Below are positions 4,617 through 35,115 of a stretch of DNA of 64,000 nt, one piece after another. The stretch is taken from NCBI GenBank assembly GCA_947034885.2, contig OZ019759.1, positions 9,550,501 through 9,614,500 of the forward strand, written 5' to 3'. Source of the stretch: Thuidium tamariscinum (lineage: Eukaryota > Streptophyta > Bryopsida > Hypnales > Thuidiaceae). Positions within the stretch are counted from its first letter, which is position 1; every line of letters begins with the position of its first letter. Made by a program: the position numbers and the translations under genes. Below the pieces are notes generated by a model, which saw nothing but the letters and a program-made list of their open reading frames with translations, ran no database searches and was not told the DNA's origin.

Positions 4617-4764
4617 GATTCCATTGCGAAAAAAATGGTTGACAGTCACACAATTTTTTGAAAGTCTATTGTACCATGAAGTTGAAAAAATGCGCACAAA
4701 AACGTGGCAAAAAAACCGCACTCCATTTTGAGTGCGGTTTTCTTTACCATGTTTTGGTATAGTG
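4617..4764 (-). mobile_element. CACTA-type terminus with internal stem-loop
   Basis: It ends in CCATGTTTTGGTATAGTG at 4764, the complement of a CACTA start. Inside is a stem-loop with stem GCACTC/GAGTGC framed by AAAAAAACC and GGTTTT. The distal part (about 4619-4670) is the reverse complement of 7834-7875, so it pairs with the terminus at 7733. The two termini point away from each other, which makes 4765-7732 outside sequence, not element interior. No 3-base target duplication is visible. Confidence 0.6.
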
Positions 4765-4875
4765 TTGGTTGTTCACTACGCGCAACGCGCAAAGAAAAAT
4801 GCGCACAAAAACACGGCAAAAAAAACTACAAAAAAATTTCTGCGCGGTTTTTTTTTACCATGTTTTGTTATAGTG
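4765..4875 (-). mobile_element. Half of a hairpin MITE of the 40481 family
   Basis: The sequence from GTTGGTTGTTCACTACGCGC to TTTTGTTATAGTG closely matches the right end of the full-length MITE at 40481-40843. Only this terminal part is present; it starts exactly where the previous terminus ends, so the two elements are joined end to end. Confidence 0.6.
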
Positions 4876-4889
4876 GGGCGGTGACATCG

Positions 4890-7732: not shown

Positions 7733-7880
7733 CACTATAACAAAACATGGTAAAAAAAACCGTAATCAATTTCCCACGACGGGTTTTTTTGCCATGTTTT
7801 TGTACGCATTTTTTTACTACAGTGGGCAAGTGATTTTTGAAAAATTGTGTGACTGTCAACCATTTTTTTCGCACTTGAAT
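7733..7880 (+). mobile_element. CACTA-type terminus with internal stem-loop
   Basis: Starts CACTATAACAAAACATGGT at 7733, followed by the usual AAAAAACC, a partly degraded stem-loop and GGGTTTTTTTGCCATGTTTT. Its inner part is the reverse complement of the terminus at 4617-4764. It points rightwards towards the 22-bp minisatellite. Beyond it, 7881-8277 holds no gene I can see. Confidence 0.65.
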
Positions 7881-9277: not shown

Positions 9278-10776
9278 TTAGAGGAAGAATATTCGAACAC
9301 CAAAAAAATTTAACTCAATAAGCTCCAGCTCCATTAGATATGCGCTCACTCATTTCACAACCTACAATGAGGTCATTAAACAAAACCTCCACTTTTTAGA
9401 TTATTTCAAAGATAACTCAGTGACATTGTATTCTGCATAAAAATCAGATCAAGGAGTTACAAATATTTTGTCAGAATCATCTTGTAAGTGTGAAATTGGA
9501 CCATGCTACAAATGCAACATGCACTTTAATGTCTACATTTTCTGAAGGGTAGTCACAACTCAAGTGAGAAAAAGAACACTGAACAGGCCAAATCATTTGA
9601 AGACTCTCATGAAGAATTTTAGAAGCAAGATACATACTGTTGGATTGAGAAGGGTACCATCTATATGTTGTGAGCGTCTTCTGCAGAAACGGAAGCCAGT
9701 TTTTGAATCCAAATCTTCACCGGAATGAAACCATATGCTATATTGAAAGGTCCTGACCTTCTTCTAAGACTTCCTTCTCAACTTTGTAGTGTTTCCGCAG
9801 ACTATCAAATTAGTAGAGTGAATTGAAGTGTTTATCTTGTCCCAGTGCCTGAGGATTGCAACATGAACGAAATCAAATGCCCGACATAATTTGAACCATA
9901 ATATCTATATGGCAATGTTCCATATATTACTAGAGGATAAACAAGGCTATTAATAAGTTGCAAAAGTATTTGGCTGAACTAAGTGTCAACTACATAGGCA
10001 TGAACTGGGAAACATAATTCGAACACATTCAAACTCTCAAATACTTTGATATAAATCAGTAATGAGTGATAAATACCTTGAGTACGTATGCAAGACCCAT
10101 GACAAAACCTTCATCTGTGAAGAGAGCATTTATTGAACTACAGGTCCGTTTAGAAAACGTTGATTTTGCTCGTACCATAGCTTCTACAACATTAATAATC
10201 AAAGCCAAAATGAACACAAACTCCTTCAAGTGAATGTTATCATCACTTTGCAAACCCTGATCCACATCCAGAATATAAGAGGTAAGTCTAAGTCAGTCCA
10301 TCAACACAACAAACCACTAAAGACTAAACACTATTTGCAGTATCTTAAACTACCTTCTTCAAAATTTCACCAAGCAACCCACCTGAGAGAAAACATTCAC
10401 AAGGATCTTAAAGTAACGAGTCTTGTCAATAAATATATTCTGGCTCTACAAGGTTGCATCAAAGAACTTCCCAGAACGCATTGCTTCCAGTGTCATGTTA
10501 GGGTTCCTCGAACCCAGCTCAAGGCTGGTGTTCTTGGCTTCCTTACATGGCTGCAACACCCAATAAATATTAAGCATTTGAGTTACTCTTAAATCTCTTA
10601 AAATATGACACCAAACAAAGTCTCTACACAATCCTAAGTCAAACTTCAAACCCGTGTGTAAAGCATCAATGCATTATATATACCACAAAGATTAAACTCT
10701 TAAAACAAATGGCATACTCTCTAAATGAGAGACAATTAAAGTAGGACAATCAAATAGGTGAAATCACAGTACCATA
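9278..10776 (-). pseudogene. WASHC4: WASH complex subunit 4 (SWIP) gene fragment, copy B
   Basis: Same gene region as copy A, in inverted orientation and better kept. Blocks in reading order: 10550-10383 (EAMRSGKFFDATL then TAG at 10448-10446, where copies A and C have GAG; ends VNVFSQ before a good GT donor); 10256-10077 (SDDNIHLKEFVF and LFTDEGFVMGLAYVLK); 9848 to about 9630 (NWLPFLQKTLTTYRWY); and 9361-9278 (MELELIELNF, ending FFL then TAA). The family motif DDGFAMG..YILK of SWIP is recognisable. Similarity to the other copies stops near 10776, so the exon seen first in copies A and C is missing. A fusion partner with its own membrane segment follows at 10777-11066. Confidence 0.8.
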
Positions 10777-11066
10777 ATAACGGATATTCTCAGCACTTAC
10801 ATGGTCGAAATAAGGTGAGGGTACCGTAGTTAGAGAAAAGAAAACACGTACCAGATTCTCTTCCATATTTGGAAATGACAAGGATTCACTTGTGTTGGTA
10901 AATAGAATGATGGCCAAGTTCACACTCCCCAAGAGGAGAGTAAGCAGGACGAGGAATAAGCGAGCCAACGACATCATCATCTCTCGGTGATCCATAATCC
11001 CGCTAGCAATTCCTGATACCACAAAAAGGGTTAGCGTTCTGACTTCCTTTTGTAATCTCATTCTTA
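10777..11066 (-). other. Possible exon with a membrane segment
   Basis: On the minus strand an ATG near 11011 opens a frame starting MDHREMMMSLARLFL and continuing through about 22 hydrophobic residues (LVLLTLLLGSVNLAIILF). It closes near 10853 at a GTACGT donor after NMEENL. This could be a signal anchor of an unknown protein. It lies in the unique strip between WASHC4 copy B and the left palindrome arm. Confidence 0.3.
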
Positions 11067-14000
11067 AGAAATGTATATCAAAAGTGCGGGACACTCACCC
11101 ACCTCTCCAATATCGAATCATATCAATTCCGCTACATCTACAAACATTCGCACAGAGCATCATGGGCATAAGTTACAGTTGTCCCATATGTCGGAGTGCC
11201 TTAGTTTCCCAAGAGCTGAAGTTTTAAACAACAGAGTAGAGTTAGCAAATTAAGCAACGTCAACAAAACAGTTCTAGTCATTCTCTCACAAAAAGCCCAC
11301 CCAAACTTTGTGAATCCAACTTCATCTCACCAGCAACCAGAACAAGATACTCAAACCTGAGTATCAAATACAATAATTTTCTCAGATCAAAATAGGAACA
11401 ACTGTAAAAGGACCACCAAGTAAGAAATCCAATCACCAGAATGTCAACCCAGAACTGAGCACAATTTGGCAAAACCAAAAAAATCCAAAAATCCAAATAT
11501 TTACAAAAAAGCAAGATAAGCAAGGGTTAGAAAATGGCCATGGCAAGCCTCCACATTGGAATCACCAAAGACACACAAATCTTCCAAACACCCATTCACT
11601 ATTCAAACTCATGAACGCAAGATCTATGACAAGCCAAAAATGTTTGGCCAGCCCCATAAGCATCAGAACCGAATTTTCGTTCACTTCCACGCGCGCTGCC
11701 AAAAGTGGCATCCTCAGCGGCATAAGTTCAAAAAAAAAGGTCATCCTAAGCCACTTGCAAACTTTAACCTTCAAAAATCGACCTCTGGAACCCAAGAACC
11801 ATCACACAGCACACAACAAACAAACAATTTGCAAACAATCCTCGTTCCAACACAGAATGTTTGTTTACTTCCACTCTGCCCAAACGTGGCATCATCTACA
11901 GCATACCTCGACAAAGAGAAATTCATCTTGTAAACCAAAAACTTCAATTCAACCTCAAGAAGGCAAGATACAATACAAACAAAATCAAAATGGTTGCCAC
12001 AAACAAAATTAAATCATCACCACAGAATGCCTTTTTTCACTTCAACGCATCTTGGAAGGCATACCTTCAAAGAGCAGTGCACTTGAGCAAACTATTTGCG
12101 AAGCCAGGCGTAGCAAGAATTTGAGAGCTGAAGAGAATTCAATGCACTGTCAACGAACCTCCCTCAAAGACTCATTAGACAACCAATAGGACTGAAGGCA
12201 CGACCAACAATGGATGCAAGGACCTGCAAACAAACCCTGAAAAGGTGCCGCCTCACCGTTAGCGTTGAAGAAAACTTCACGCAGTCCTTCCACGTTGTCA
12301 CTCTCTAATTTTGTCAACCTCAATGCATTGCAACTTCTATCTTTTGCTCAAAGACAAAATTCCTCTAGTGAGTCAGAGAAGTGTCATTAAATGCAACCGT
12401 CAATTCCAGGGGAAGCAGATGCACATCCATTAAATACTCGAAAGTATCCTCATTTGGACTTTCTGCACAACCTATTTTGAAGAAAAGATTGCACATCATG
12501 CACATATCCCTTTTCTTTAACACTGCCAAATTGTATGATCTAAAAAAAAATCTAAAGTTGTCGCAAATGATTCCGGGTTAAACATTGTTATAGAATGACA
12601 ATGAAAGAATCTTTCGTACTCATACTGTCACAAGCAAAAACTGTGAAGAAGGCAGCTCACGAGGATAGCTTACATATAGCTTACATATATTCCAACCTTG
12701 TAATTAGCAGCTTGGGACGGAGCATGTAAGCATACCAATAGAAAGAAAAAAGGAAAGAAAAAATTTAGCTAGGATTTCTTCATTAATTCAATATACTTTT
12801 CTTGTATCATTGGAATTGCCCATGTATTTAAAAAACAAAACAAAACGAACAGGGGGCCGCAAACACTACCCTGCTTCCAATACTTCCAATGAACAATTCC
12901 CAAATGACCTATCATGTCTTCTCAAGTGTTTCAATTGAAATTCCTACTATCCCAAAACCTACTAGTACTGTTTTTTAAAACCTATGTGACAATTCACAAA
13001 CGAAGCATCAAATTACAAACTAATGGTAAGTTACAATGAAGCCAGCCATACGATTGAGCAAATTTTTGTGTCACTAACCTGCAGTATGAAAGGCTGGCAT
13101 GTTCATGTTAAGAGTTGAGCAACTTCTGCAACCCATGGTCCACTGTGAAGCAACAAGCAACTTTTTGTCAAGGAAGCATTCAAGATCATAATCTGCAAGC
13201 CCCAAATTCTACATATTAACCTACACATGAACAAACTCACATTTATCGTTGTGACAAATGCAGATACATTGCGGTAACCTTCGATTGATAGTCTCAAATA
13301 AATACTCTTTTTGTCACATTGAATCACTCATCTGGACTAACATGGAATAGAAGCATATTATTTTCCTAAGATCACAAATTAGGATAGCTAGCACACACAA
13401 TTAGGTGAGTTAGGTAATAAGTTTCACCAATAACGACAGTATTCTTTTTGTCCATGAAAAACAAAAAAAATTACAACAAAAAAATGACCACACCTTGAGA
13501 ACAGGTTCATCCGTCGAGGGAGGCGGTGCCTTTGCGACAATCACTGTTTCTTTGGCAGCTCTTAGGTTATGCAACCCCGCCGAGTCATTCACATGGCATG
13601 GGACTTGCTTCTTACCAAAACAACCGGACATTTCAAAGAGAAAGGATTTCGAAGGTGTTATTCGGAATTTCACACCTTCGCGCAAGGCTGCAAAGTTTGT
13701 ATCTTCAAACCTGAACAGACATGAGTGGGAATGCGCCTTGCAATCGCCACCATGTCTAGTTAGTTTAGCGTTTAGGGTCCATACATAAATTGAAATCATT
13801 TAAAAAAAATTAAATTAATAATAACAAAAATTAAAAAGTTAAAATTAGAATTACAAAATTGTTTTTTTAATTTTCTTTTTGGAAATACATGGACAATTTC
13901 CATTGCAAGGGAAAGAGTTTAAAGAACCTAAGGCCAAAGTCCCGGCGGAACAACTATTTCTTTTGTTTTTAGAAGTAATAGGAATTTGAAATCCGACCTC

Positions 14001-16745
14001 ACAACCAAAGATGTTTTTGTGGTTTTCCAAAGTTAGGACTAAAGGAAATTTCAAAGTGTTCAAAAGGTACATGTTTGAAGGATACAAAAAATATTCAAAA
14101 CCATTCACTCAAAGCTTCTTTACTTTACAACCATGAAGCATCATTTTCTAACTAGAAAACATTCAAAGCAAATTAGGTAGTTCTACTTTAAATTGGTATC
14201 ATCTTAAAGTGGAAGACTTTGTTTATCAACCATTATTGAATATTATGGAACTCACTTTTTAATCATATAAAGAACATTAAAAAGTCAAAAATTGAATTGA
14301 ATTCAAAAATGTCATTCAATTACAATGTATGAAAGTTATAAGAAATCAAGTTGGAATGATAAAATCTCAAAATTTGTGTCCTCATTTCAAGATCATGAGG
14401 TTGAACATTGTGCACGTAGCATTTACATATTCTTTGGATTTTGTAGGACAAGTACTTGGGAACATGCTAAGATTTTGGCAATCCTACTAATTACACAATT
14501 TTGAAAGTGTAAGGTGCTTTTAAGTGTCAGTTTAGAAAACAATCTTGAGAGATAATTACAAGTTTCATCCAACAAAAGTTGGTTCATTGAGCTTTTCAAA
14601 AATTAATTGTTTTGAAGTAGGAATTACATGAGGCTCTATACACATCCCCGCCTTGATATGTCTACAATAAACATTAAGACTAGTAATTGAAGAATGCAAT
14701 ATGTATTTTGTAATAGCAAACAATTTGAGAGTCTAAATTGCTTTAGCACTTGCTACTTTTAGTCATTTAGTTCTTGAATCAACAACATGAAACCTTCTTA
14801 ATTGCACAGTTCATTTATCTCCAAATGCCCAAAGTACCATATTCTTGTGTTGATTAAATTTTGAAGTTAAATTAAATCTTACTAAAGTACTATTTTTTAT
14901 TTATTTATAGATGAATATCAATCAAAGTTTAAATCAGATTCAAAATACATTTGGAAAAATTTGATTTTTCCTATTGAACATTCTATGTAAGGATGCTCAT
15001 TGCAACTTTTGTTTTTTAAGTGTTCGGAACTCCTCAAGTTGAGCCTCAATGCACTAGATTTTAGGAAGAGGGGGGAAATTGCATTGGAAATTCATTTACA
15101 AAAGATTGTACAATAGATTCTCAGAAGTTGTTAATTGATTGTCATTATGCATGTAAAAAGAGAATTAAAAGACTTCAATTCACATAACTTTGACAATTTG
15201 ACAACTTAATCAAATATTATAATCTTTTGATCCATTAGCAATATATATAATTAAAACTCCACCTCAAGTGCAAACACCAAAGAGTATTTGAATATAAATT
15301 TTCAAAATATATTTGTATATAAGCTATTTTTTGGAGGATTTAGATGGAAATTAAATAAGACATTACCTAGATGTCAAGCAAGTATATTTTGGGACATTGT
15401 TGAATATATTTTGAATTTCAAAACATTGATTCTTGACATATCAAAAATCAATTCTAGAGACACATATTTTGAAGTTACAAATTTTGGATTAGCTTTGCAA
15501 TAGAGGTGCAATTTATTGTCTTTATCTTACATTCTAAAGTGTCTTCTTGAATTCCATGAATGATGATTATAATTCATTAATAGAAAATTGCATTTTTTAT
15601 ATTATTTGCAAACAATATTCAAATCAAAAAATAGTTTTAATACTAGTTATCTTTTACTTTTAGCTTAATTATGAAAATTTTGTAATTTAATTTGACGACT
15701 TTAATGGAAAATCTCTGAAAAATAATATATCTATGAATGTCTTAGAAAGCTTTGTCATCTAAATTCAAAACCTTTAGACAATTCTAGGTCTAAATTTCTT
15801 ATTAAAGTTATTAAAGTATTCCCATATGCCCAAAAATTGTATTACTTTACTCAAAAAAATGAAAAGAACATCAATTGGAGATATACATTTGGCATTCATT
15901 CATAGTATCCAAAGTAAGAATTTGTAAGAGTTTAATATACCTATTGGAAAATCATTACAGGGATTAAAATGATATTGCCAAAGGTTGTCCATTGTCTACT
16001 ACCTCTAACAAAAAAATTGCCACCTTTTGAACTTTCTATTCACTTGTTTGTCAACTTGATGTTTGTAGCTATCAACCAACTTACTTGGAATGATACACCA
16101 TTTATGTATGGATGACTTTGTTGGTGAACATTTGAGGCAATTGTCTTTCAAATGTAATTTTCCATAAAGGTGTCTAAATTGGCAAATCTACTTACAATTT
16201 GGTGAACTTCATATTTCAACTATTTGTATGATTTTTTTCATAAATAAATTGAAAAAAACATCTCCCATAGGTATTCATCTTATCATAGTGGATGTACTTG
16301 TTTTGAGTCACTTAAAAAAATTTGCATATTCTAATGTAGAATCAAGATATAAAACTATTTCAAAATGCATTTTTTTTAATTCATGATTTTTAATTTTCAA
16401 CTATAAATTTTTGAATACATATAAGTGTAAAATGGATTTTTGAAATTCCACTTTTTAGTTCATCGTAATTTATGTTTGTACTCATATAGACACTTAAAAA
16501 CATTTCATTGGCATTACTTGCATTTGGATGTTTTCAAGATTAATGTACGTTTAAGTTGGATTATAGCACTTCCACTTTACAAACAATTTACTTATACTCC
16601 CTTCTTTCACCTTTCATATCCATTTTTTTATGATTTAATGTTTTTGAATATATGTAGGCATAGTCAATAATGGATAACCATACCTTATATTACTAAATTT
16701 TCTAATAACTACGGTGCTAAAATATAATGTATACTGGAAATTTGA
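11067..16745 (+). repeat. Left arm of giant palindrome (5,679 bp)
   Basis: The reverse complement of this arm is 23324-29002, and paired positions always add up to 40069 from the outer to the inner end, so the arms have the same length with no net indel. In the stretches I compared I found only three substitutions: the inner end (GTATAC against GTGTAC), near 11357, and near 11900. The outer boundary is at AGAAATGTATATC and the inner at GGAAATTTGA. No target duplication or superfamily-type terminus is visible at the outer ends. Apart from candidate exons around 13494-13710 the arm is AT-rich and noncoding. Confidence 0.95.
13494..13710 (-). CDS. Candidate exon in left palindrome arm (mirror of 26359-26575)
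   Basis: Mirror image of the exon at 26359-26575, with the same predicted translation and splice sites. See that entry for the description. Because both arms carry it, either copy could be the ancestral one. Confidence 0.4.
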
Positions 16746-17126
16746 TATTATTAACGTTGAGCCCTTTTTCATTGCTCAATAATGTCTAAGGGCCAAAGAA
16801 TAATGCAATTTTCCAAGATTAAAAGGATGTTTTATGAAATACATTTTACAAGAAAACTTGAGTGATGCTTTTCATAGTTCATACAAAAGGTGTAAAATAT
16901 GATCTACAGATAGTATTGGAATAGAAAGATATTTATAGAATAAGGGACAAAATATTGATTTTGAACTTAAATAAAAATTTACTTGAGTTTTGATTTTTAA
17001 CTTTACTTAAAATTTAAGTACTATCCAAAACCTACAAGTATTAATCAGTATTATAAGACCAAAGATGATTTCATGAAGATTACTTGTCCTAAATTTTTTT
17101 TTGATATTTATTGAATGTGTTTGATA

Positions 17127-17216
17127 CCCCCTATGTCCCACTTAAAGATTGCTAATTAGGTTGATTTACAATCTTTGTAAGAAGAAGTTGGAAAGCTTTT
17201 AGTGGGATAGAAGGAG
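17127..17216. mobile_element. Stowaway-like MITE
   Basis: A 90-base element with terminal inverted repeats CCCCCTATGTCCCACTTAAAG and its complement CTTTTAGTGGGATAGAAGGAG (imperfect), flanked by TA on both sides. TA target sites and ends resembling CTCCCTCCGTYYC are typical of Stowaway (Tc1/mariner) MITEs in plants. Confidence 0.65.
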
Positions 17217-19628
17217 TATCATTCAATATTATTGAAAGATGTGTCCTTAAGTTTATAAACCCTTCTAGTACCTAAATTTTCAAATATGAATCTTGTTGAT
17301 GTACAAAAGAGTAAAGATGTGACTAATTTTGCAATTGTAGTATTCAACAATTTCTCTTGTTTTTTTAAAAACAAAGTAGTTGTTTTATAACAAAATCATT
17401 TTACTTTTTTGAAATGTAGGGAACATTTTTACAAGGTTTTTTGTTTATTTTTCATGTAGGTTATGTTTATAATTTTTCACACAAATTCTTGAAGTTTGTT
17501 TTAACATATTACATTCATAGTTAAAGTTGTTTTAAATTTATGAAGATTCAAAAGAAAAGATAGATAAAAAAATAAAGGTCAATATTTAATATTGTATTAA
17601 ATATTAATTTTTAATAATTGGATCCATCTTGAATGATGTATTTCCATTCAAAAAATATATGTTAGCTAGGCAAGAGCTTAAGCAAGTGAAGTTCCATTAG
17701 TGACAAATCCTTCCAAATTGCATACCTAAATTAGCAATTATTTTTTTTATAACCCTATTATAAAGTACAAAGAAAGTTTGAAAATTTTCAAGTGGGATAT
17801 AATTAAGGTTTCTTTTTAAGTTTCTGACTTTATTTAGCAAATCAAGTATTTTTGAATGTCAAACTAAAGTTGTATGGGTACATAGAAAAGCTTAAAGTAT
17901 TGAAATGTAGTATAAGATTTGAATATTATGAAAAATTAATAAAATTTTAATATGTCTTGAACTTAACGCAATTATGATGTAGATATAGCAAGTTGTTTAC
18001 AACAAGTTATGTGAAATTTATTATTCTTCAATATGATAAAGGACTATTTAATCATTTTGGAATATTTTTATATTGAAATGGTATTAGTATAGACTAACCA
18101 AATGTCTAAACAAGTGATGCATGGATGATATGAGGACCTAGGTTTAGAACTAGCAAAAATTCTTTTGAAGTCATTGTCATTTATAAATTGCAATGTTGAT
18201 AAGTTTTCACATTGATTCTCATATTTTTCTATTGTTCAAAGATAGGTTAAAGTTTTTAATTATTGTACAAATCTATAAACCAACTTCCTATCAAAAAGAT
18301 AAAAGATAAGATATAATCTATAATATTATGTATATTACTATAGATTGGTTGCATTTAAATTTGCACCTTTTAAGTTAAAAGTGTGCTTCTAGGTCTAGAA
18401 ACATACAAGTCCTTTCACTTTTAACTTGCATGTAAAACATGTAATTCTCAAGGTAATTCTAATTTATATTTCTAATAATTCTATTTGGTTTGTTATTTAA
18501 TTATTTTTGGGCATGTTGACAATATTGCATTATTTTGAGTTGTAGATATTCATATGCACTTTGTAGATGGTCAAACCCATGTACAATTATTTTAAGTCAA
18601 AGTTAAAAGAAGATTTGGATGGCTAAGAATATAGAAATAAAAATGTTATTTAAATTTTTCTTAGACACCTATATTTATATTGTATTCATGAAATTAAGGT
18701 GAATGTGATCTTCTTCATTTTTCATTGCTAGTCATTTGTCATCATCATAGCTATATAGAATAGAGAATCCAAACATTGTAAGTGTTCATTGTAACTTAAT
18801 TGTTAATTTTTTTTTCTAATTTACATAATTTTTTTGAAAATTCCAATTGCAATTGAAACTAGAATAGATGACCTTCATTTCATTAGTTGGGCTCAAACTC
18901 AAAATATATCATTTTAGAATTAGAGCAAGGCACAACAATATAAAATATATCATTTTAGGATTAGAACAAGGCACAACAATATTTCAAAAATACATTGATA
19001 TAGCATATTTTGTCATTTGTTTTTTTACTTATTTATCAACCATGTGAAAATAAACACCACTCAAACTAAAAACTTGATTGGATACTCTTTGTAACTCAAT
19101 ATAAAAGGTCAACAAAAAAAGTGGATGAAAAAATGCTTCTAATATATTTTGAAAACCTTGAATTGTCATCCAAATGCCACATAATGGTATTGGTGGTTGT
19201 CTAAGGCTAATGGTTAATTCTAATATATTCACAAATTCCAAAATTTTACAATTCCTATGCATGTCATATTTTACTATATTATACACTATTCGACAATTCT
19301 CAATAGTTCCCTCCCATTTTACCATCCTAAATTTTTTGTATAGTATAAATATAAATGGAATTTTTTGTCTTGCATTATGAACATTCAATTCTTATGTGAT
19401 TCCAATTTTAACATACCAAATTTGAATTTAAGAAAATCAAGATTCTATTTTTGATGAATTGTTTCATTTAAAATTTGTAGTTTTACATAATAAATGATAA
19501 AAAATCAATGGTGACAAATTTTGTAAATTTAACTGCATAAATAAGTAGAAAATATTTGTATGCACATCTTTTCTTTCAAGAGAATCCCTAAAAAATTTAG
19601 AATTTCCTTAAAACAATTCCAAAGGTTG

Positions 19629-19808
19629 GGGTGGCAATGTCCAAATTTTGGAAAAATAGATAATTATATATTGTAATTAGACTTTTCTATTTGACCTTTA
19701 CATTGTAACTGATTTTGTAAATTTAACCGTGAAGGTATATTTGCCTTGCCAAAATCAAATTACAATGAATAAATATATCTATTTATCAGAATTTGGACAT
19801 TGCAACCC
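19629..19808. mobile_element. Small inverted-terminus element
   Basis: Starts GGGTGGCAATGTCCAAATT and ends with the near complement AATTTGGACATTGCAACCC, about 180 bases in all, with the inverted similarity extending about 50 bases inwards. No clear target duplication, so the superfamily is undecided. Confidence 0.5.
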
Positions 19809-21219
19809 TAAATTTTGACATTGTTGAGACAAAATTGTAAATTTTCTCAAAGATGCTTATTAAATGCAAGATGTGTACGTGGATTTTTCTTACATATTTC
19901 CACAATTTAATCCCAAAAAAAATTCATCATCAATGCTTGTCAATGAATTATTGTAATCCATGAATTTTTTTACTAAAACCCAAGAACTTTTTTTAAAATT
20001 GTGATTTTTTGAATTTGTATAAATACTTACTATTAATGTTTGAAATTCATCTTGAAGATGCATCCAAATCCATTTTCTATATTCAAGTACAAATTTAAAA
20101 CATTTCAGATTGCTTATATCTATATATTTTCAAAAGTGGTTTATAGTTCTAGTTGATTCTAGGCATTTTCGCCCTATTGCACAGAAAATGATGTCAATCT
20201 AATGGGTGAATGATCAATGTTTTTTTAGCCATGTGACTAGCAATGTCACTAGAGTACAAAAGTTATACCCAAATAAATTCAAAATAGGAGAGAGTGAACA
20301 ACAAAAATAAAAATAAAAATTTTAATTCTTTAAATTTACTTTTTTCTCATAGATTATATTTTTGTTTACGTGGAAATATTTTATTCATTTCATTTGAATT
20401 TGTTATGAAAAAATTATTGACAATCTTATTTTTTATCAACTAAAACGTCTTTTTGAAAAAATAACTTGTAGAATCCGTTTTTGAATGCATTTTTTGTAAT
20501 TTATCCCAAAAAAAGTTTCAAATAGTTTAGTTTTATTGCCAATCTCATCATTGGAATTAGTGCATTTAAATTTCATCTTAGAGATATTAATAATTTATAT
20601 TTCTCTTTTATTTTGTACCTACTTTGACTTAATAAATTGTTAAAGAACAAAAATTAAATTTTTTTGAATTTTTTCCCCCTAGATTCTCAACTCAATTCTA
20701 GAAAAATTTAGTTAATAACTGGAAGATGGAATTGACACATTATATTCACAACAATGAGATTGTTTTAGCAAACAAACTAAACCTTCGATTTTTATTTTGT
20801 TTTTTAAACAAATGAAAGAGACTGGATTCCAGTGAGTGAGTGTCCGGGATGAACTGACCCCTAACTTCCAGATGGCTCAAAATAGGGAGCTTTTTTTTTC
20901 ACATGCACCCCTGGAATGATTTGGGAGGCTGAGCAATGGGGCGAGTTCACCCCGACCCATCGAGAGGGTGAGAGGGGTGGGTGGATTTGAAGTTCTTGCA
21001 CATTTCTTATATGTCAAAAAAAATTTCTTGCACACGTAATTAAGTTATGGCAGGTTTCAAGGAAAATTTATTTATTTATTTATAGCAGGTTCTTCAGCAA
21101 CTTTGAGATGCTTGTGAAAACCATGACCTAGTTCACCTGATAGATCCTGAGCCAGTTATGTGTTGGCTTGATTTCAGGTTGAGTATGTTAGTTGGCTGTG
21201 CTGACTAGCTTGCTGATTA

Positions 21220-21492
21220 ACGTAGATACATCCAAAAGCGCCATGTTCCTAAAAGCGCCATCTACAGTGCACTTACATTTCCAAAATCAGTTATGTTCAG
21301 ATGTTGTAGATGGCGCTTTCAGAAACAGATTTTGACCATTAATAACTTTTGTATACAGTATCCAAATCCTGCATTCTTTGGTGCGTTGGAACATACTTTC
21401 ACTTGCCAACAAGATTGCATAAAAATTTGAACTAGCTAATAAGAGGAACTAGGCACAATATGAATAAGTGGCGCTTTTGGGTGTACCTACCT
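21220..21492. mobile_element. Mariner-like MITE carrying an inner hairpin
   Basis: About 273 bases, with ends close to A(C/G)GTAGRTACAYCCAAAAGCGCC in inverted orientation and a TA dinucleotide on each side, as for Tc1/mariner insertions. Inside, GCGCCATCTACA (near 21254) pairs with TGTAGATGGCGC (near 21306), and the same GCGCC core is shared with the termini. Confidence 0.55.
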
Positions 21493-21589
21493 TAATGTAG
21501 TTTGGTTGAGTTGGGTCCAGGTTCTAGTGGTTTTTTTAAAAAGATATTAAAAAAAAGAAAATGCTTTGTTGAGGACTAGTTCCTCTGGT

Positions 21590-21655
21590 TTTGTGAACTG
21601 TTTCCTCTATCAATGGAAATTACCCATGTGTTTAAAATAAATAAATAAATCATGA
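21590..21655 (+). mobile_element. Retroposon-like 3' end
   Basis: The motif CAATGGAAATTACCCATGTG followed by an A-rich tail of TAAA units recurs, slightly changed, at 12810-12845 and 13865-13905 and in their mirror positions in the right arm. A shared 3' motif followed by A-rich DNA suggests a LINE or SINE family, but no target duplications could be drawn. Confidence 0.3.
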
Positions 21656-22474
21656 CCTAGACCAGGGATGGATTGGATTGTGCAACTGAGCGCCATTGAA
21701 ATGATTTCAGTTGGTCAAGGGTAGTGCTTGAAGATCTAGGTAGACAGTCACGCAGGGTACAAAGTGAAACCACCTATACTAGATCATTTAAGCAATTTTA
21801 GAATAGATCATAAGGAATATGAGGCTATATAAATTTTTCCTATGTAGAAAGATAGGAAACTTTTTGGATTGTAAATTTTTCATAATTTTATTCCCAAAAT
21901 TGATATTACCATGCTTTTTGGAAGCCAAAAAGTGCTTTGAACCAATATAGCCAATGTCTAAAGTCTTCCAATTCTTATCATAGTAGAGACTACTTGCCTA
22001 CTTGGTATTTTCCACACACTTTAGGACACTTTAGGACATGTGTTATGACCTTATTAGTCCCAACTTTGTAAATGGGACAAAAATACATTTGAAGATTTGG
22101 TTGGAAATCTCTTTGAGCTGTGGTTGGAAGTTGTTGCAAACTACAAGTTGGGTATGGGGCCTTGGTCAAGAATAGGTGGTTCTACCTTAACTTATTGGGT
22201 GTAAAGCAATCCATACTTTAACCCCTAAATACCCAAGGCCTTTTTTTAACTTCTATGAATTGCTCTAAATTGAACAAAAAGCCAATATTTTGATAAGCTA
22301 TATCAATTTTTTTTTAATGAATTTTAACCATACAAATTCAAACTAGACATTTTAGAGGTCACAAAGGAAAACAAAACACAACAATATCACTTACAAATTG
22401 AAAGATTATAATGTTTGAACATGACAGTGTTAAAACTGCAAAAGTGACTTGAAGTTTTTTAATCCTCTTTTCAC

Positions 22475-23323
22475 ATGTCAAATCTAAAGAGTTGGTCAAA
22501 AAAAAATGAGGTTAAAGGATCTAACATGCATAACCAAAATCAATTTACAACTTCCCAAAATCTACTCTACAATTTTTTAAATGAATTTCTCATGTGTTAT
22601 TTCCTCCAAGATGTAGCGTATTTGACTCTCATTTCCAAGAGCCCTCAATACTATGGGAAGTCAAAATTGAAATGGATACCCTTGCACAAAATCTTAAATA
22701 GAAAAATCATAATCAATCGTTTTAAAAAAAAGATTTTTGACACTAAAACTAGACTTCCAAAATAATATTTCAAAAATATAAATTACTAAAAATAAAAAAC
22801 TTGGCAAGGTTTTAATTGACTTCAAAGTTTTCTCAATACCAAAATTTGGTGCCTTGGGCATTTAGAAGTTAAATTTGTTTGTTTTGTTTTGTTTGTTTGT
22901 GAAGTTGAGATTCTCTTGGAGTGTGCGTCCTTTAGTGGCATGCTTGGTACCACCAAAAAGCACTCAATGAAGAAGAGTGCATAGACTTTGTTTTGTGACA
23001 TTTGGATATGCATTGAGAAATTTATTGAATTTAGAAGTTTTTATTACATCAAAAAATTAGAGAATTACTTAAAATTACATTTTGATTGTGGAAATCACAT
23101 AAGGCACATAAATTCTTAATTAAATACACCACAAACTACAAGTTAGGCAATCCAACAAAGTTACTATTACTCCAAATGTTGAATTTTTTTTGCAGAGTCT
23201 TGTTGGAAGTCAAAAGCGATTCTATTTAATGCAATGCTCTAGCCATTTAAAAAAAATGTGATGTAAATAAAGACTTGACCATAATGTTATCAACTCTACA
23301 TGACAATAGGACGATATCAAATG
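22475..23323. other. Spacer end, nothing recognised
   Basis: AT-rich DNA with a short simple block of TTTGTTTTGT units near 22875-22900. No supported gene. Confidence 0.4.
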
Positions 23324-26300
23324 TCAAATTTCCAGTACACATTATATTTTAGCACCGTAGTTATTAGAAAATTTAGTGATATAAGGTATGGTTATCCATT
23401 ATTGACTATGCCTACATATATTCAAAAACATTAAATCATAAAAAAATGGATATGAAAGGTGAAAGAAGGGAGTATAAGTAAATTGTTTGTAAAGTGGAAG
23501 TGCTATAATCCAACTTAAACGTACATTAATCTTGAAAACATCCAAATGCAAGTAATGCCAATGAAATGTTTTTAAGTGTCTATATGAGTACAAACATAAA
23601 TTACGATGAACTAAAAAGTGGAATTTCAAAAATCCATTTTACACTTATATGTATTCAAAAATTTATAGTTGAAAATTAAAAATCATGAATTAAAAAAAAT
23701 GCATTTTGAAATAGTTTTATATCTTGATTCTACATTAGAATATGCAAATTTTTTTAAGTGACTCAAAACAAGTACATCCACTATGATAAGATGAATACCT
23801 ATGGGAGATGTTTTTTTCAATTTATTTATGAAAAAAATCATACAAATAGTTGAAATATGAAGTTCACCAAATTGTAAGTAGATTTGCCAATTTAGACACC
23901 TTTATGGAAAATTACATTTGAAAGACAATTGCCTCAAATGTTCACCAACAAAGTCATCCATACATAAATGGTGTATCATTCCAAGTAAGTTGGTTGATAG
24001 CTACAAACATCAAGTTGACAAACAAGTGAATAGAAAGTTCAAAAGGTGGCAATTTTTTTGTTAGAGGTAGTAGACAATGGACAACCTTTGGCAATATCAT
24101 TTTAATCCCTGTAATGATTTTCCAATAGGTATATTAAACTCTTACAAATTCTTACTTTGGATACTATGAATGAATGCCAAATGTATATCTCCAATTGATG
24201 TTCTTTTCATTTTTTTGAGTAAAGTAATACAATTTTTGGGCATATGGGAATACTTTAATAACTTTAATAAGAAATTTAGACCTAGAATTGTCTAAAGGTT
24301 TTGAATTTAGATGACAAAGCTTTCTAAGACATTCATAGATATATTATTTTTCAGAGATTTTCCATTAAAGTCGTCAAATTAAATTACAAAATTTTCATAA
24401 TTAAGCTAAAAGTAAAAGATAACTAGTATTAAAACTATTTTTTGATTTGAATATTGTTTGCAAATAATATAAAAAATGCAATTTTCTATTAATGAATTAT
24501 AATCATCATTCATGGAATTCAAGAAGACACTTTAGAATGTAAGATAAAGACAATAAATTGCACCTCTATTGCAAAGCTAATCCAAAATTTGTAACTTCAA
24601 AATATGTGTCTCTAGAATTGATTTTTGATATGTCAAGAATCAATGTTTTGAAATTCAAAATATATTCAACAATGTCCCAAAATATACTTGCTTGACATCT
24701 AGGTAATGTCTTATTTAATTTCCATCTAAATCCTCCAAAAAATAGCTTATATACAAATATATTTTGAAAATTTATATTCAAATACTCTTTGGTGTTTGCA
24801 CTTGAGGTGGAGTTTTAATTATATATATTGCTAATGGATCAAAAGATTATAATATTTGATTAAGTTGTCAAATTGTCAAAGTTATGTGAATTGAAGTCTT
24901 TTAATTCTCTTTTTACATGCATAATGACAATCAATTAACAACTTCTGAGAATCTATTGTACAATCTTTTGTAAATGAATTTCCAATGCAATTTCCCCCCT
25001 CTTCCTAAAATCTAGTGCATTGAGGCTCAACTTGAGGAGTTCCGAACACTTAAAAAACAAAAGTTGCAATGAGCATCCTTACATAGAATGTTCAATAGGA
25101 AAAATCAAATTTTTCCAAATGTATTTTGAATCTGATTTAAACTTTGATTGATATTCATCTATAAATAAATAAAAAATAGTACTTTAGTAAGATTTAATTT
25201 AACTTCAAAATTTAATCAACACAAGAATATGGTACTTTGGGCATTTGGAGATAAATGAACTGTGCAATTAAGAAGGTTTCATGTTGTTGATTCAAGAACT
25301 AAATGACTAAAAGTAGCAAGTGCTAAAGCAATTTAGACTCTCAAATTGTTTGCTATTACAAAATACATATTGCATTCTTCAATTACTAGTCTTAATGTTT
25401 ATTGTAGACATATCAAGGCGGGGATGTGTATAGAGCCTCATGTAATTCCTACTTCAAAACAATTAATTTTTGAAAAGCTCAATGAACCAACTTTTGTTGG
25501 ATGAAACTTGTAATTATCTCTCAAGATTGTTTTCTAAACTGACACTTAAAAGCACCTTACACTTTCAAAATTGTGTAATTAGTAGGATTGCCAAAATCTT
25601 AGCATGTTCCCAAGTACTTGTCCTACAAAATCCAAAGAATATGTAAATGCTACGTGCACAATGTTCAACCTCATGATCTTGAAATGAGGACACAAATTTT
25701 GAGATTTTATCATTCCAACTTGATTTCTTATAACTTTCATACATTGTAATTGAATGACATTTTTGAATTCAATTCAATTTTTGACTTTTTAATGTTCTTT
25801 ATATGATTAAAAAGTGAGTTCCATAATATTCAATAATGGTTGATAAACAAAGTCTTCCACTTTAAGATGATACCAATTTAAAGTAGAACTACCTAATTTG
25901 CTTTGAATGTTTTCTAGTTAGAAAATGATGCTTCATGGTTGTAAAGTAAAGAAGCTTTGAGTGAATGGTTTTGAATATTTTTTGTATCCTTCAAACATGT
26001 ACCTTTTGAACACTTTGAAATTTCCTTTAGTCCTAACTTTGGAAAACCACAAAAACATCTTTGGTTGTGAGGTCGGATTTCAAATTCCTATTACTTCTAA
26101 AAACAAAAGAAATAGTTGTTCCGCCGGGACTTTGGCCTTAGGTTCTTTAAACTCTTTCCCTTGCAATGGAAATTGTCCATGTATTTCCAAAAAGAAAATT
26201 AAAAAAACAATTTTGTAATTCTAATTTTAACTTTTTAATTTTTGTTATTATTAATTTAATTTTTTTTAAATGATTTCAATTTATGTATGGACCCTAAACG

Positions 26301-29002
26301 CTAAACTAACTAGACATGGTGGCGATTGCAAGGCGCATTCCCACTCATGTCTGTTCAGGTTTGAAGATACAAACTTTGCAGCCTTGCGCGAAGGTGTGAA
26401 ATTCCGAATAACACCTTCGAAATCCTTTCTCTTTGAAATGTCCGGTTGTTTTGGTAAGAAGCAAGTCCCATGCCATGTGAATGACTCGGCGGGGTTGCAT
26501 AACCTAAGAGCTGCCAAAGAAACAGTGATTGTCGCAAAGGCACCGCCTCCCTCGACGGATGAACCTGTTCTCAAGGTGTGGTCATTTTTTTGTTGTAATT
26601 TTTTTTGTTTTTCATGGACAAAAAGAATACTGTCGTTATTGGTGAAACTTATTACCTAACTCACCTAATTGTGTGTGCTAGCTATCCTAATTTGTGATCT
26701 TAGGAAAATAATATGCTTCTATTCCATGTTAGTCCAGATGAGTGATTCAATGTGACAAAAAGAGTATTTATTTGAGACTATCAATCGAAGGTTACCGCAA
26801 TGTATCTGCATTTGTCACAACGATAAATGTGAGTTTGTTCATGTGTAGGTTAATATGTAGAATTTGGGGCTTGCAGATTATGATCTTGAATGCTTCCTTG
26901 ACAAAAAGTTGCTTGTTGCTTCACAGTGGACCATGGGTTGCAGAAGTTGCTCAACTCTTAACATGAACATGCCAGCCTTTCATACTGCAGGTTAGTGACA
27001 CAAAAATTTGCTCAATCGTATGGCTGGCTTCATTGTAACTTACCATTAGTTTGTAATTTGATGCTTCGTTTGTGAATTGTCACATAGGTTTTAAAAAACA
27101 GTACTAGTAGGTTTTGGGATAGTAGGAATTTCAATTGAAACACTTGAGAAGACATGATAGGTCATTTGGGAATTGTTCATTGGAAGTATTGGAAGCAGGG
27201 TAGTGTTTGCGGCCCCCTGTTCGTTTTGTTTTGTTTTTTAAATACATGGGCAATTCCAATGATACAAGAAAAGTATATTGAATTAATGAAGAAATCCTAG
27301 CTAAATTTTTTCTTTCCTTTTTTCTTTCTATTGGTATGCTTACATGCTCCGTCCCAAGCTGCTAATTACAAGGTTGGAATATATGTAAGCTATATGTAAG
27401 CTATCCTCGTGAGCTGCCTTCTTCACAGTTTTTGCTTGTGACAGTATGAGTACGAAAGATTCTTTCATTGTCATTCTATAACAATGTTTAACCCGGAATC
27501 ATTTGCGACAACTTTAGATTTTTTTTTAGATCATACAATTTGGCAGTGTTAAAGAAAAGGGATATGTGCATGATGTGCAATCTTTTCTTCAAAATAGGTT
27601 GTGCAGAAAGTCCAAATGAGGATACTTTCGAGTATTTAATGGATGTGCATCTGCTTCCCCTGGAATTGACGGTTGCATTTAATGACACTTCTCTGACTCA
27701 CTAGAGGAATTTTGTCTTTGAGCAAAAGATAGAAGTTGCAATGCATTGAGGTTGACAAAATTAGAGAGTGACAACGTGGAAGGACTGCGTGAAGTTTTCT
27801 TCAACGCTAACGGTGAGGCGGCACCTTTTCAGGGTTTGTTTGCAGGTCCTTGCATCCATTGTTGGTCGTGCCTTCAGTCCTATTGGTTGTCTAATGAGTC
27901 TTTGAGGGAGGTTCGTTGACAGTGCATTGAATTCTCTTCAGCTCTCAAATTCTTGCTACGCCTGGCTTCGCAAATAGTTTGCTCAAGTGCACTGCTCTTT
28001 GAAGGTATGCCTTCCAAGATGCGTTGAAGTGAAAAAAGGCATTCTGTGGTGATGATTTAATTTTGTTTGTGGCAACCATTTTGATTTTGTTTGTATTGTA
28101 TCTTGCCTTCTTGAGGTTGAATTGAAGTTTTTGGTTTACAAGATGAATTTCTCTTTGTCGAGGTATGCTGCAGATGATGCCACGTTTGGGCAGAGTGGAA
28201 GTAAACAAACATTCTGTGTTGGAACGAGGATTGTTTGCAAATTGTTTGTTTGTTGTGTGCTGTGTGATGGTTCTTGGGTTCCAGAGGTCGATTTTTGAAG
28301 GTTAAAGTTTGCAAGTGGCTTAGGATGACCTTTTTTTTTGAACTTATGCCGCTGAGGATGCCACTTTTGGCAGCGCGCGTGGAAGTGAACGAAAATTCGG
28401 TTCTGATGCTTATGGGGCTGGCCAAACATTTTTGGCTTGTCATAGATCTTGCGTTCATGAGTTTGAATAGTGAATGGGTGTTTGGAAGATTTGTGTGTCT
28501 TTGGTGATTCCAATGTGGAGGCTTGCCATGGCCATTTTCTAACCCTTGCTTATCTTGCTTTTTTGTAAATATTTGGATTTTTGGATTTTTTTGGTTTTGC
28601 CGAATTGTGCTCAGTTCTGGGTTGACATTCTGGTGATTGGATTTCTTACTTGGTGGTCCTTTTACAGTTGTTCCTATTTTGATCTGAGAAAATTATTGTA
28701 TTTGATACTCAAGTTTGAGTATCTTGTTCTGGTTGCTGGTGAGATGAAGTTGGATTCACAAAGTTTGGGTGGGCTTTTTGTGAGAGAATGACTAGAACTG
28801 TTTTGTCGACGTTGCTTAATTTGCTAACTCTACTCTGTTGTTTAAAACTTCAGCTCTTGGGAAACTAAGGCACTCCGACATATGGGACAACTGTAACTTA
28901 TGCCCATGATGCTCTGTGCGAATGTTTGTAGATGTAGCGGAATTGATATGATTCGATATTGGAGAGGTGGGTGAGTGTCCCGCACTTTTGATATACATTT
29001 CT
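23324..29002 (-). repeat. Right arm of giant palindrome (5,679 bp)
   Basis: Reverse complement of 11067-16745; see that entry. On the right the sequence beyond 29002 continues with exon-like pieces on the plus strand, whereas beyond the left arm it passes into WASHC4 copy B, so the two outer flanks are unrelated. Confidence 0.95.
26359..26575 (+). CDS. Candidate exon of an unknown gene in right palindrome arm
   Basis: After a CTGTTCAG acceptor, 217 bases are open in one frame and close at an AAG/GTGTGG donor. The translation is well balanced (for example REGVKFRITPSKSFLFEMSG and ends APPPSTDEPVLK). Possible further exons on the same strand lie at about 26748-26828 (KSIYLRLSIEGYRNVSAFVT, then a GTGAGT donor), 26878-26960, 27595-27695 and beyond the arm. 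I do not recognise the protein. The mirror copy is at 13494-13710. With no complete transcript model I cannot say if it is still expressed. Confidence 0.4.
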
Positions 29003-30660
29003 GAATCAGGCCTCTGCAATTTTGAGGTGAAGGTGCGCAATGCCTAGGATGGAGGATTCCAGGCAGTTGCCATCTATAACAACCAAAATGATCACGATTT
29101 GGTCATCAGTTAGTGAGCTTTTGGACTTTTCCCTTCTTCATCTCAATTGTCAGTCGTTTGGGATGTTATCGGTTGGATTCACTTTAGCTTTATTTGCTTT
29201 AGGTCACAAAGTTAAGAAAGTAATGGAATGGGCTAACCCCGTGTACTCAAGTTCAAAATAGAATATTCTTTTTGGAAGCTACATTGATAATCTTCAAGAG
29301 ACGTATTTCTATCGTTCAAAATTGTAGGGTACAATTTCTCTTTTCTATTGGGTTTTTTGGGTTACCTTCATTGAAACTCTCCAAATATTTATTTCAGCTC
29401 CTAAAATTATAGAAGCAAACACCTTTGGCCATTTGATACTTAACAATAAGTGCCCTAAGAACCTTACATTTTTTATTGATAGAAGTATGTTTTGAAGGTA
29501 CTATAATAGCTTCCATTGAAGTGAGCTTGCTTCATTGAACTTTAATAGGCAAATGAGATAAGAAAAAGAGGTTAAGACAATAGAGTGCGAGAAGAGGAAT
29601 TAGCTTTTGAATTTTGTACCAGATTTCATGTTGTTTGCTAGTTTTGAGTGTTCTTTTGTTGCGACTATGGTGTCAGGAAACCCCTTCAACATCTATCCAT
29701 ACTCTATTTTCACGTCGAATTTTTTAAGGGCTTTTCTACTCAAATATGCTGGTGATTCAAGTGCAACTTGCTACATAATTTCAACGTTAGAAAACATAGC
29801 TTGGTTAGTGATGGCAATATCGTTCATCTCCCTCCTAGCAGTCTCTTCTGTATTGTCCACTTTTTTCTTTGTTCAACAACACAGATTGCAACATTTGAGT
29901 GCGTGGTTCCTTCCCAGAGAGCCTGCTGGTAGAATCCATTAATACTGATCCAAGAATAGGAGTTGGGGTTCCTTTTTTATGCACCTTGTTGAGGTCATGG
30001 TATGTTTTCATGTCTGATTTGTTTACTTCTATTTATTTAGTCCTTGATCGGTTCATGCGTCTTTGTTTCTTGGAGCCATCATTTGAGCTTAGATATGACT
30101 TTCTTGGGTTTGTTTGATGGCTTTCAATTCTACACCCTAGAGTATTAGGGTTTTCATTTCATTCATATCTAAAGTAAACTCTACATAACATTCTCAAGGA
30201 GCTATTTGGACAGTTTTGGAATCAATGAACAATTGGCTGAAAAACGGAATGTAGATTTGATTTGTGAGTAATCTTGAGTGTGCAAGGGCAGGTGTGATTT
30301 TTTGGAATTATTTTCTTTCTGGAATCGTGTCTGAACTCACTTGCCTGCGATTGCATGCTTGAAAGCGGAATGAATTGGTTTTGTATTTTTTCAATTCTTT
30401 AATATATTAGTTCTCTAAATTCTTCTTGTACTACACAATTGCTCACGTGTTTCAAACTAGGAAATTTGTTATATGGTTGCATCTTGTTTGTGAGACTATA
30501 TTGCCCGTAATAGACTTGTGTTTTATAATTGGTGATTTTAGTTTGGTATAATTGCTGCTTTCTTGTGTCGGGAATTACAGGTATAAGCAATGGCATTAAT
30601 TCTTGGCAATGCTGATGAGCTCTTAGGCTATTTAGCATGTTTTGACTTAGTGTTTTCCCA
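29003..30660 (+). other. Right flank of palindrome with scattered exon-like pieces
   Basis: Just outside the arm, about 29003-29110 reads as coding on + (LCNFEVKV, one TAG, then DGGFQAVAIYNNQNDHDLVI). Around 29925-30000 another short open block (ESINTDPRIGVGVPFLCTLL) ends at a GT donor. These may be downstream exons of the gene that starts in the right arm. No domain recognised. Confidence 0.3.
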
Positions 30661-30925: not shown

Positions 30926-31645
30926 AACTGTGGAAGTGCAAATGGAAACAGTCCTGGGTAATTTCAACAACACTAAAGCTGTCTTCTTCTAATGGAAAAT
31001 GAGTAGAGGCATTTGTCATGTACTCACTCGTGATGGTATTTTTTACAAAAATTGTTGATGTGTATGTTGAAAATAGTCCAGAAAAGTCGGTGGAAAGGAA
31101 TTATGTTACTTTACAATTATGTTTAATCTTGTGTTTAATAAAGACGTGTAACTTTTGCAGAGACTTCGTGAAGCAAATTAGTGGTGCATTTTTTTGTTGT
31201 GGCCATCACAGTCATAGGGCTTCTTCCGGGCTTTCAAAAGACCCTGCAAAATCATTTGAAAGTCACGTATACTTTTTTCAATGTTTTTGACATTGCAGGG
31301 AGTGCAAGCTAGAAGAGAAAAAACGTTTACTCACGTTATTCGTGTAAAAAGTATAGGACGACATGTGTAGGTCAATCCACGCTGTTATTGTCGTAAGCTC
31401 TGTTAGTCTAGGGAGAATTTAATGTATCAAAATTGACTTAGAAACATTTATATCATTTTCCTAGTTCTTCTTCAATGATCACATGAAGTCGAGAGTTGTC
31501 AAAGAATACCGGTTTACCAAGGTGCCTCATCTCACCTCTTCTAGTCATTAGCATGTAATCGTTCTTATTGGATTTGTCGAATGCATGTAGATGGTTTCGT
31601 TCTCACTTGCCTATTGGAGATGTTTCAGGAAACCCAAGGGAATAA
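30926..31645. other. Intergenic DNA, nothing recognised
   Basis: No supported coding sequence, repeat or RNA gene between the acidic terminal exon and the Harbinger-like element. Short open frames here have no splice or family support. Confidence 0.4.
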
Positions 31646-34600: not shown

Positions 34601-35112
34601 CTTGATTCCCCAACTTTTCTTAGTTTGAAGTTTTTTGAAAAAATACAGTTTATTATGTTTAAATGAGGTTTGAATTTGACTTTTATCATAATTCCTGCAT
34701 TTCCACAACCATGAATGGAGGAGCTCTTTTTTCTCCTAAATCACATATCCCACATGGTTTGTTTCACCCACCACTACTCTACTAGTATAAAGAGTTTCTC
34801 TTCTCTCCCATCTCAATCCAAGATTGGTTGTGAGGCTTAAGTGAACATGTGGCACAAAACCCACATCATTACTTCAATTTTCTTCTTGAAAATCTTGTGT
34901 TCTATAACATTCTCATCTACTTTGTTGGAAAAATCAAATTTAAACAGAAATTGGAAGTAGGTTGATGGTTCCTCAGAAGGGTGAGGAGCAGCCCCTTGAT
35001 CTGCTCGCATGCCATCCTTGCCCCCAAAAGAGGCTCAATAGAGACATTCTGTCTAAGCACGCCCTCTGTAAATGCACCTAAAATTTTACTAACAACAAGT
35101 GGGAACATACCC
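31646..35112. mobile_element. PIF/Harbinger-like foldback element with ~800-bp inverted termini
   Basis: Both ends start GGGTATGTTCCCACTTG and are flanked by TAA (31643-31645 and 35113-35115), as expected for PIF/Harbinger. The left arm 31646-32447 pairs with 34311-35112, with scattered substitutions (for example near 31655 and 31735), so it is older than the giant palindrome. The interior (32448-34310) is AT-rich and without a transposase or Myb-like gene, so the element is non-autonomous. A frame of about 60 codons runs through each terminus in mirror image; I take it as chance. Confidence 0.8.
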
Positions 35113-35115
35113 TAA

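Follow-up and report, generated by a model that had tools for sequence, protein, structure and literature searches.

The window, a stretch of 64,000 nucleotides from Thuidium tamariscinum, contains a palindrome whose inverted arms are more than 99% identical around a spacer. The parts of the palindrome and the sequences at its edges are as follows:

11067-16749, plus strand: arm A, 5,683 bp, delimited by ungapped arm-to-arm comparison.
16750-23319, no strand: spacer, 6,570 bp, holding a very abundant repeat at 22213-22876.
23320-29002, minus strand: arm B, the reverse complement of arm A with 7 substitutions and no gap.
10772-11066, minus strand: outer flank of arm A, covering predicted exon 1 (10855-10995) and the start of intron 1 of an RMR-type gene.
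29003-29930, plus strand: outer flank of arm B, holding a portion of predicted exon 2, which carries the PA domain and an in-frame TAG, and a transmembrane exon of the RMR-type gene at 29664-29930.
16750-17467, plus strand: left spacer edge, collinear with a paralogue at C11:16.691 Mb directly after the arm.
23255-23319, minus strand: right spacer edge, matching the same paralogue position and not the left edge.

The arms match with a BLAST score of 10456 bits, which is not attributable to chance, and are 99.88% identical over their whole ungapped length. The first-pass annotation had described reverse-complement arms of exactly equal length around a spacer of about 6.6 kb. Our comparison agrees on all of these points, with the arm size corrected from 5,679 to 5,683 bp; the three substitutions noticed earlier in the parts compared became seven once the whole arms were aligned. 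All seven are transitions, located at arm A coordinates 11262, 11357, 11467, 11898, 16691, 16731 and 16746. Beyond the arms, ungapped identity between left and right was 12-38% in ten 50-bp blocks, and the edges are sharp. The outer ~1.1 kb of arm A corresponds to the 5' flank of the RMR-type gene, the rest consists largely of dispersed repeats, and the inner half is AT-rich.

The genome assembly comprises 11 large contigs or chromosomes, and the palindrome lies on C11, the smallest of chromosome size, which makes up 4.8% of the genome. A full-length arm pair was found only at this locus among the 61 matches listed (40 of 1,106 first-look candidates scored). The whole spacer was likewise found once among the matches listed, from a search that gave 18,955 first-look candidates and scored 40, nearly all of them the repeat at 22213-22876. 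A second, larger palindrome with arms of about 27-30 kb was found on C7. Its identity falls in one step, from 99.93% over 26.76 kb to 98.8% over 3.24 kb, and its arm differences are mostly scattered.

We recognised no gene in the arms. In arm A, open stretches of at least 28 aa on the minus strand matched no Pfam family at E ≤ 0.01, and the four plus-strand arm ORFs of at least 100 aa gave no Pfam match above cut-off; the search covered open stretches, so spliced genes could escape it. Among 20 ORFs from the window, the sole Pfam match above cut-off was to WASH-7_mid. The WASH-7_mid-like stretch lies within a repeat that flanks the palindrome at 35118-35943 (plus strand) and 10775-10300 (minus strand), with copies 86% alike. 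We rejected the reading of these two copies as an older inverted duplication because the sequence recurs at low copy number as a dispersed repeat (11 matches including itself), with a closer copy (88%) on C9.

The sequences outside the two arms appear to derive from a single kind of gene encoding a PA-TM-RING protein, which we take to be of the RMR type; its transmembrane segment was called by eye. The copies of this gene considered here are those recovered with the arm as the genome query. In a paralogue on C5, the outer end of arm A is joined directly to exon 1 with no break, and sequence matching the outside of arm B (exons 2-3) follows about 560 bp further along. The C5 paralogue has Pfam matches above cut-off to PA (E 5e-12) and zf-RING_11 (E 4e-7), and a second RING piece falls below the cut-offs (best E 8e-6). 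In the window copy the PA part scores just below cut-off (23.6 versus 23.9 bits), the transmembrane exon is present, and no RING match was found in the window. The exon 1 piece and the exons 2-3 piece occur once each in the window, on opposite sides of the palindrome and in opposite orientation, and are collinear on C5. Divergence from the C5 paralogue is about equal for the arm (12%), the exon 1 piece (16%) and the exons 2-3 piece (11%). The palindrome sits between two predicted halves of this decayed receptor-type gene. The outer flanks had been described as unrelated, which is true when they are compared with each other; because the C5 paralogue carries both, they are better read as separate portions of the same type of gene.

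At the inner side, arm identity ends at a 34-bp indel between ACATT repeats, with the 34 bp present on the right and absent on the left. The left spacer edge matches the C11:16.691 Mb paralogue with E 5e-74, and the right edge matches the same position over 51 bp (23255-23305; 76%, E 1.6e-6). The two spacer edges resemble each other only at chance level (shuffle P 0.91 for 150 bp and 0.76 for 500 bp; best E 0.019). The C11:16.69 Mb paralogue is also collinear with 22213-22876, which we rejected as evidence of an old duplication because this repeat is very abundant. As judged by the paralogues, arm A keeps its putative old neighbours on both sides, with exon 1 outside and a flank made of dispersed repeat inside. 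By the same comparison, arm B borders predicted exon 2 of that type of gene on its outer side and a diverged part of this repeat flank on its inner side.

All seven arm differences lie close to unique sequence, at most 832 bp from it at one end and 59 bp at the other, leaving a difference-free middle of 4,792 bp. A maximum-gap test, chosen post hoc, gave P = 1.5e-5 for this clean middle with uniform placement, 3.5e-5 with placement at G/C sites and 2e-4 at CG/CHG sites. With context matching, the same post hoc test gave P = 5e-5, or 3e-4 when the difference lying 4 bp inside the arm end was left out. The outer cluster alone gave only P = 0.0067 after matching of CG/CHG sites. We found no signal of GC-biased conversion: changes from G/C on C5 to A/T in the window, versus the reverse, numbered 80:28 in the outer 1.07 kb of the arm and 95:30 in both outer flanks.

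The arms had been attributed either to a very recent inverted duplication or to gene conversion keeping them alike. Both accounts are still live, and the clustering of differences at the arm ends, with diverged homology just past the inner edge, leads us to lean towards homology-directed copying. We put at roughly one half the probability that the palindrome was made by such copying, whether gene conversion or break-induced synthesis, within an older inverted repeat. The locus would already have held two inverted copies of a repeat-rich 5' flank, and after a break, or repeatedly, the sequence of one arm would have been copied onto the other. Copying may have stopped, at either end, where the two sides first differ in structure. 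At the outer end this would be the roughly 0.84 kb, including exon 1, that is missing on the right, and at the inner end the 34 bp missing on the left. Such copying would have brought the arms to their present identity, with differences left only near the ends. We assign the arms no function of their own. Consistent with the copying account, both spacer edges match one paralogue position yet not each other, the C5 paralogue is unbroken across the outer end of arm A, and the C7 palindrome too shows a step in identity. However, the inner homology on the right spans just 51 bp, the inner difference cluster may be sequence that the invading end itself contributed during one copying event, and no GC-biased-conversion signal is seen in the outer 1.07 kb. 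The presence of exon 1 and exons 2-3 once each, left and right, is also the outcome expected of a single gene-splitting rearrangement.

A somewhat less probable alternative is that one recent rearrangement of this kind split one RMR-type pseudogene and left its 5' flank in two copies, so that the arms would be alike only because they are young. It could have been a small inversion with staggered breaks, or an inverted duplication by fold-back or template switching; both fold-back inversions and inverted duplications at the breakpoints of inversions have been reported (PMC10622511, PMC7584159, PMC5080602). The sharp edges, the single-copy gene pieces and the similar distances of arm and gene pieces from C5 all agree with such an event. 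Against it stand the clustering of differences at the arm ends and the diverged homology past the inner edge on both sides, and it needs an extra deletion for the loss of the exon 1 piece and the following ~0.55 kb on the right. An assembly or polishing artefact, in which one collapsed arm was written twice or mixed reads were polished to the same letters, would produce differences confined to the proximity of unique sequence, as seen here. We nevertheless consider it improbable: the window contains no N, independent paralogues back the junctions between arm A and the sequences beside it, and the larger C7 palindrome was assembled with mostly scattered differences. A transposon with 5.7-kb terminal inverted repeats would also place inverted ends around a spacer, and an element with terminal inverted repeats, bordered left and right by TAA, occupies 31645-35113 close by. 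This origin is very improbable, given the one full-length arm pair among the matches listed, the C5 homology that continues through the outer end, and the absence of a target duplication at the arm ends by eye. The earlier view that this is not an ordinary transposable element is borne out by these observations.

Near-identical palindromes are best known from the sex chromosomes of mammals, birds and willow. The first-pass annotation drew this parallel for the arms; it stays tentative here, with a larger palindrome on C7 and no gene recognised in the scanned arm stretches. In mosses, the smallest chromosomes are the sex chromosomes in two Hypnales and two Sphagnum species and the largest in three others, according to PMC10619864; for Climacium, PMC11503002 names chromosome 4 in a sex-chromosome context. 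That C11 is a U or V chromosome which never recombines with a partner, and that this palindrome belongs to a set kept uniform there by conversion between arms, is unlikely in our estimation. If true, palindromes would be a substitute for recombination in a haploid UV system, with C7 showing the process on another chromosome too. Among the papers listed on moss, UV-sex-chromosome and plant-autosome topics, no title concerned palindromes in mosses or UV systems, and "palindrom" is absent from the main text of PMC9946827 (Sphagnum) and PMC13182070 (Blasia). Because the moss gametophyte is haploid, exchange between arms can be followed with no risk of mistaking alleles for it, and here the outer edges are tied to a broken gene through paralogues. 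A single locus whose arms lack a recognised gene is modest in weight; given the C7 palindrome, a genome-wide moss survey would directly test if structures of this kind are markers of sex chromosomes or simply of repeat-rich DNA.

The palindrome resembles long-TIR DNA transposons, such as the element at 31645-35113, in its inverted ends around a spacer, and differs in having no target duplication, no further full copy among the matches listed and a paralogue continuous across its end. As in the breakpoint inverted duplications and fold-back inversions reported in PMC5080602, PMC7584159 and PMC10622511, a segment is enclosed by inverted copies, and the junction interrupts a gene. Unlike in those cases, arm A has on either side the kind of neighbour seen in the paralogues, diverged homology extends past the inner edge, and an extra right-side deletion is needed. 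With the palindromes of the human Y chromosome the locus shares arms more than 99% alike, a spacer and signs that identity is confined to parts of the arms, and its arms are much shorter than most human palindrome arms. The same features link it to the W palindromes of the willow Salix purpurea, which PMC7023750 describes as long inverted repeats more than 99% alike around a spacer. In contrast to the sex-chromosome pattern, the moss arms are without a recognised gene, and the larger palindrome sits on another moss chromosome, C7.

The palindrome in this moss is real and near-identical; it belongs to a known kind and is tied to a broken gene. In an all-against-all comparison of the window the dominant pair was 11067-16749 (arm A, forward) against reversed 23320-29002 (arm B), which confirmed the near-identical inverted arms of the first-pass annotation. 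The arms align over 5,683 bp with seven substitutions, all transitions, and no gaps; the length first given (5,679 bp) was 4 bp too short, and the three differences recorded with it were a partial count, which the full-arm alignment recommended at the time brought to seven. Beyond the arms, on both outer and inner sides, 50-bp blocks were 12-38% identical (ungapped).

Four of the differences lie in the outer 832 bp and three in the inner 59 bp, which leaves 4,792 bp of the arm free of any. Under uniform placing such a clean gap has P = 1.5e-5, in a maximum-gap test picked post hoc on data already seen; a gap of the same size has P = 3.5e-5 if placement is confined to G/C sites and 2e-4 if it is confined to CG/CHG sites. 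Drawing each difference anew from positions that share its sequence context gives 5e-5 (3e-4 after dropping the difference 4 bp from the arm end). The outer cluster taken alone gave P = 0.0067. Polarized by one paralogue each, five changes, each of C-to-T type, fall on arm A. Arm B has the other two: one at 11357, at a shift in the alignment, and one at 16731, whose polarity is uncertain because a paralogue on contig C4 seems by eye to have arm B's base.

A genome search reported 61 matches to the arm, and the two that were full length are both within the window. Arm repeats are undercounted because 40 of 1,106 first-look candidates were scored. Among the matches reported, those elsewhere in the genome cover parts of the arm at 68-83% identity; the outer 1.07 kb has one relative, on contig C5, and the arm from about 2,950 inward belongs to a dispersed repeat family with members on C4, C5, C7, C11 and others. 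Pfam searches of the arm gave no family at E 0.01 in minus-strand open stretches of at least 28 aa, and none above cut-off in the plus-strand ORFs of at least 100 aa, which number four.

The C5 relative of the arm's outer end (25.32 Mb) runs unbroken past window position 11066 to 10772, with 82.7% identity across the outer end of arm A (BLAST, gaps counted), and further along C5 lies a relative of window 29009-29929 (87%). With exon limits set by eye, the open frames of this paralogue comprise a first exon of signal type, then a PA domain (E 5e-12) and a transmembrane-like stretch that includes a first, above-cut-off RING piece (E 4e-7); a second RING piece falls below its cut-offs (best E 8e-6). 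We take plant RMR (PA-TM-RING) receptors to be built from this set. The window holds these parts of such a gene:

10995-10855, minus strand: exon 1, left of arm A, from comparison with the C5 paralogue
from the outer end of arm B, plus strand: part of exon 2, with an in-frame TAG
29664-29930: transmembrane exon, right of arm B

No match to RING was found in the window. The outer flanks had been called unrelated, and they look it; however, because the C5 paralogue has both, about 560 bp apart, they are separate pieces of a single kind of gene, and the palindrome lies between the two. Compared with C5, the right side is missing some 844 bp, comprising exon 1, intron 1 and the start of exon 2. 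A second paralogue, at C11:16.68-16.69 Mb, has in the C5 order a relative of 29927-30435, arm pieces and the left spacer edge.

The paralogue at C11:16.69 Mb is collinear with arm A past its inner end and on into the left part of the spacer (window 15253-17122). At the arm boundary 34 bp, set between ACATT repeats, are absent from the left spacer edge but present at the right one, and they have a counterpart in this paralogue. Because the right edge still matches the paralogue (51 bp, 76%, E 1.6e-6), arm identity stops at an indel within older, diverged homology and not at the homology's end. The left and right spacer edges resemble each other no more than chance would give (shuffle P 0.91 and 0.76; best E 0.019).

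We favor homology-directed copying between inverted copies, to which we give a probability of about 0.5. The arms, their edges and the gene parts are established, and the mechanism is inferred from them: the repeat-rich 5' flank of the gene would already have been present in inverted copies, and copying may have proceeded by repeated gene conversion or by one break-induced synthesis. That the copies pre-existed is favored chiefly because the indel lies inside diverged homology, an argument with a short stretch as its basis. A point against conversion is that no GC-biased signal was seen: changes from G/C in C5 to A/T in the window versus the reverse number 80:28 in the outer 1.07 kb of the arm and 95:30 in the stretches outside arms A and B together. 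The strongest rival, a single recent rearrangement in which one pseudogene was split and its 5' flank duplicated, better accounts for the presence of one exon 1 and one set of exons 2-3, and we regard it as credible with the odds somewhat against it. An assembly artefact would leave differences only near unique sequence, which is the pattern seen, but the window has no N and the joins of arm A are backed by paralogues, and we consider this explanation unlikely.

One arm relative, on contig C7, is itself present as two inverted copies, with these main arms:

C7:25687457-25714213 and C7:25751804-25725046: 26.76 kb, 99.93% identity, 16 mismatches, 2 gaps

Past a small indel the C7 arms extend 3.24 kb more (98.8%, 34 mismatches, 3 gaps), and the center is about 4.6 kb, with 2.3 kb of it outside the sequence read. 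Of the 16 substitutions, five cluster at the indel, no more than 82 bp away, three of these within 12 bp, which could be noise from the alignment; the others are scattered. Open frames in this palindrome resemble Copia gag-protease by eye, and RMR peptides had no match in it. No inverted pair (400 bp, 90%) was found in stretches at C4:21.69 Mb (29.7 kb), C11:16.68 Mb (29.7 kb) and C5:25.31 Mb (22.0 kb), which were picked as paralogues, so no palindrome rate is derivable from them, nor in 83.8 kb around the window besides the two known pairs.

The window also holds a 3.47-kb element (31645-35113), presumably a non-autonomous PIF/Harbinger-type transposon, that starts (A)GGGTATGTTCCC, has TAA on both flanks and carries 809-bp terminal inverted repeats (8 substitutions, 99.0%). 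A dispersed low-copy sequence occurs three times (35118-35943, 1766-2614 and 10775-10300), the first copy with an open stretch matching WASH-7_mid (E 9e-13). Self-complementary hairpins (97%) at 40481-40843 (363 bp) and 1299-1640 (343 bp) have related pieces at 4764-4876 and 7733-7803 and are fold-back MITE-like. Tandem arrays lie at 38109-38480 (40-bp unit, 9.3 copies) and 60711-61335 (71-bp unit, 8.8 copies). The longest of the frames listed in the window, stop to stop, is 44201-45487 (minus strand, 429 aa, no Pfam family).

The genome comprises 363.2 Mb in 19 contigs, and the window is C11:9550501-9614500. Eleven contigs (54.2, 47.9, 47.4, 32.5, 30.6, 29.1, 28.8, 25.7, 24.9, 24.3 and 17.5 Mb) look like chromosomes, C11 being the smallest; the remaining eight are at most 115 kb. 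Round sizes of C9, C16 and C19 (24,900,000, 30,000 and 115,000) suggest cut or rounded records. C19 (115 kb) has two intact PsaA/PsaB-family frames; the one tested is PsaB and scored best against photosystem chains 7ksq, 6l35/7xqp and 8htu, which, or at least the first two, we take to be from the moss Physcomitrium.

The 11-chromosome count is consistent with published n = 11 moss genomes: 11 chromosomal pseudomolecules are given for Climacium (PMC11503002), for Straminergon and for Ulota. Sex chromosomes are described as the smallest in two Hypnales and two Sphagnum and the largest in three other mosses (PMC10619864); in Climacium chromosome 4 is named (PMC11503002). For C11 the comparison covered size rank, in which it is the smallest, and the palindrome on C7 speaks against any special role of C11. 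The palindrome is of interest mainly for the genome-wide question it raises. Among the titles listed by text searches of the literature, none concerned palindromes in mosses or UV sex chromosomes. Palindromes of the willow W chromosome show signs of gene conversion (PMC7023750).
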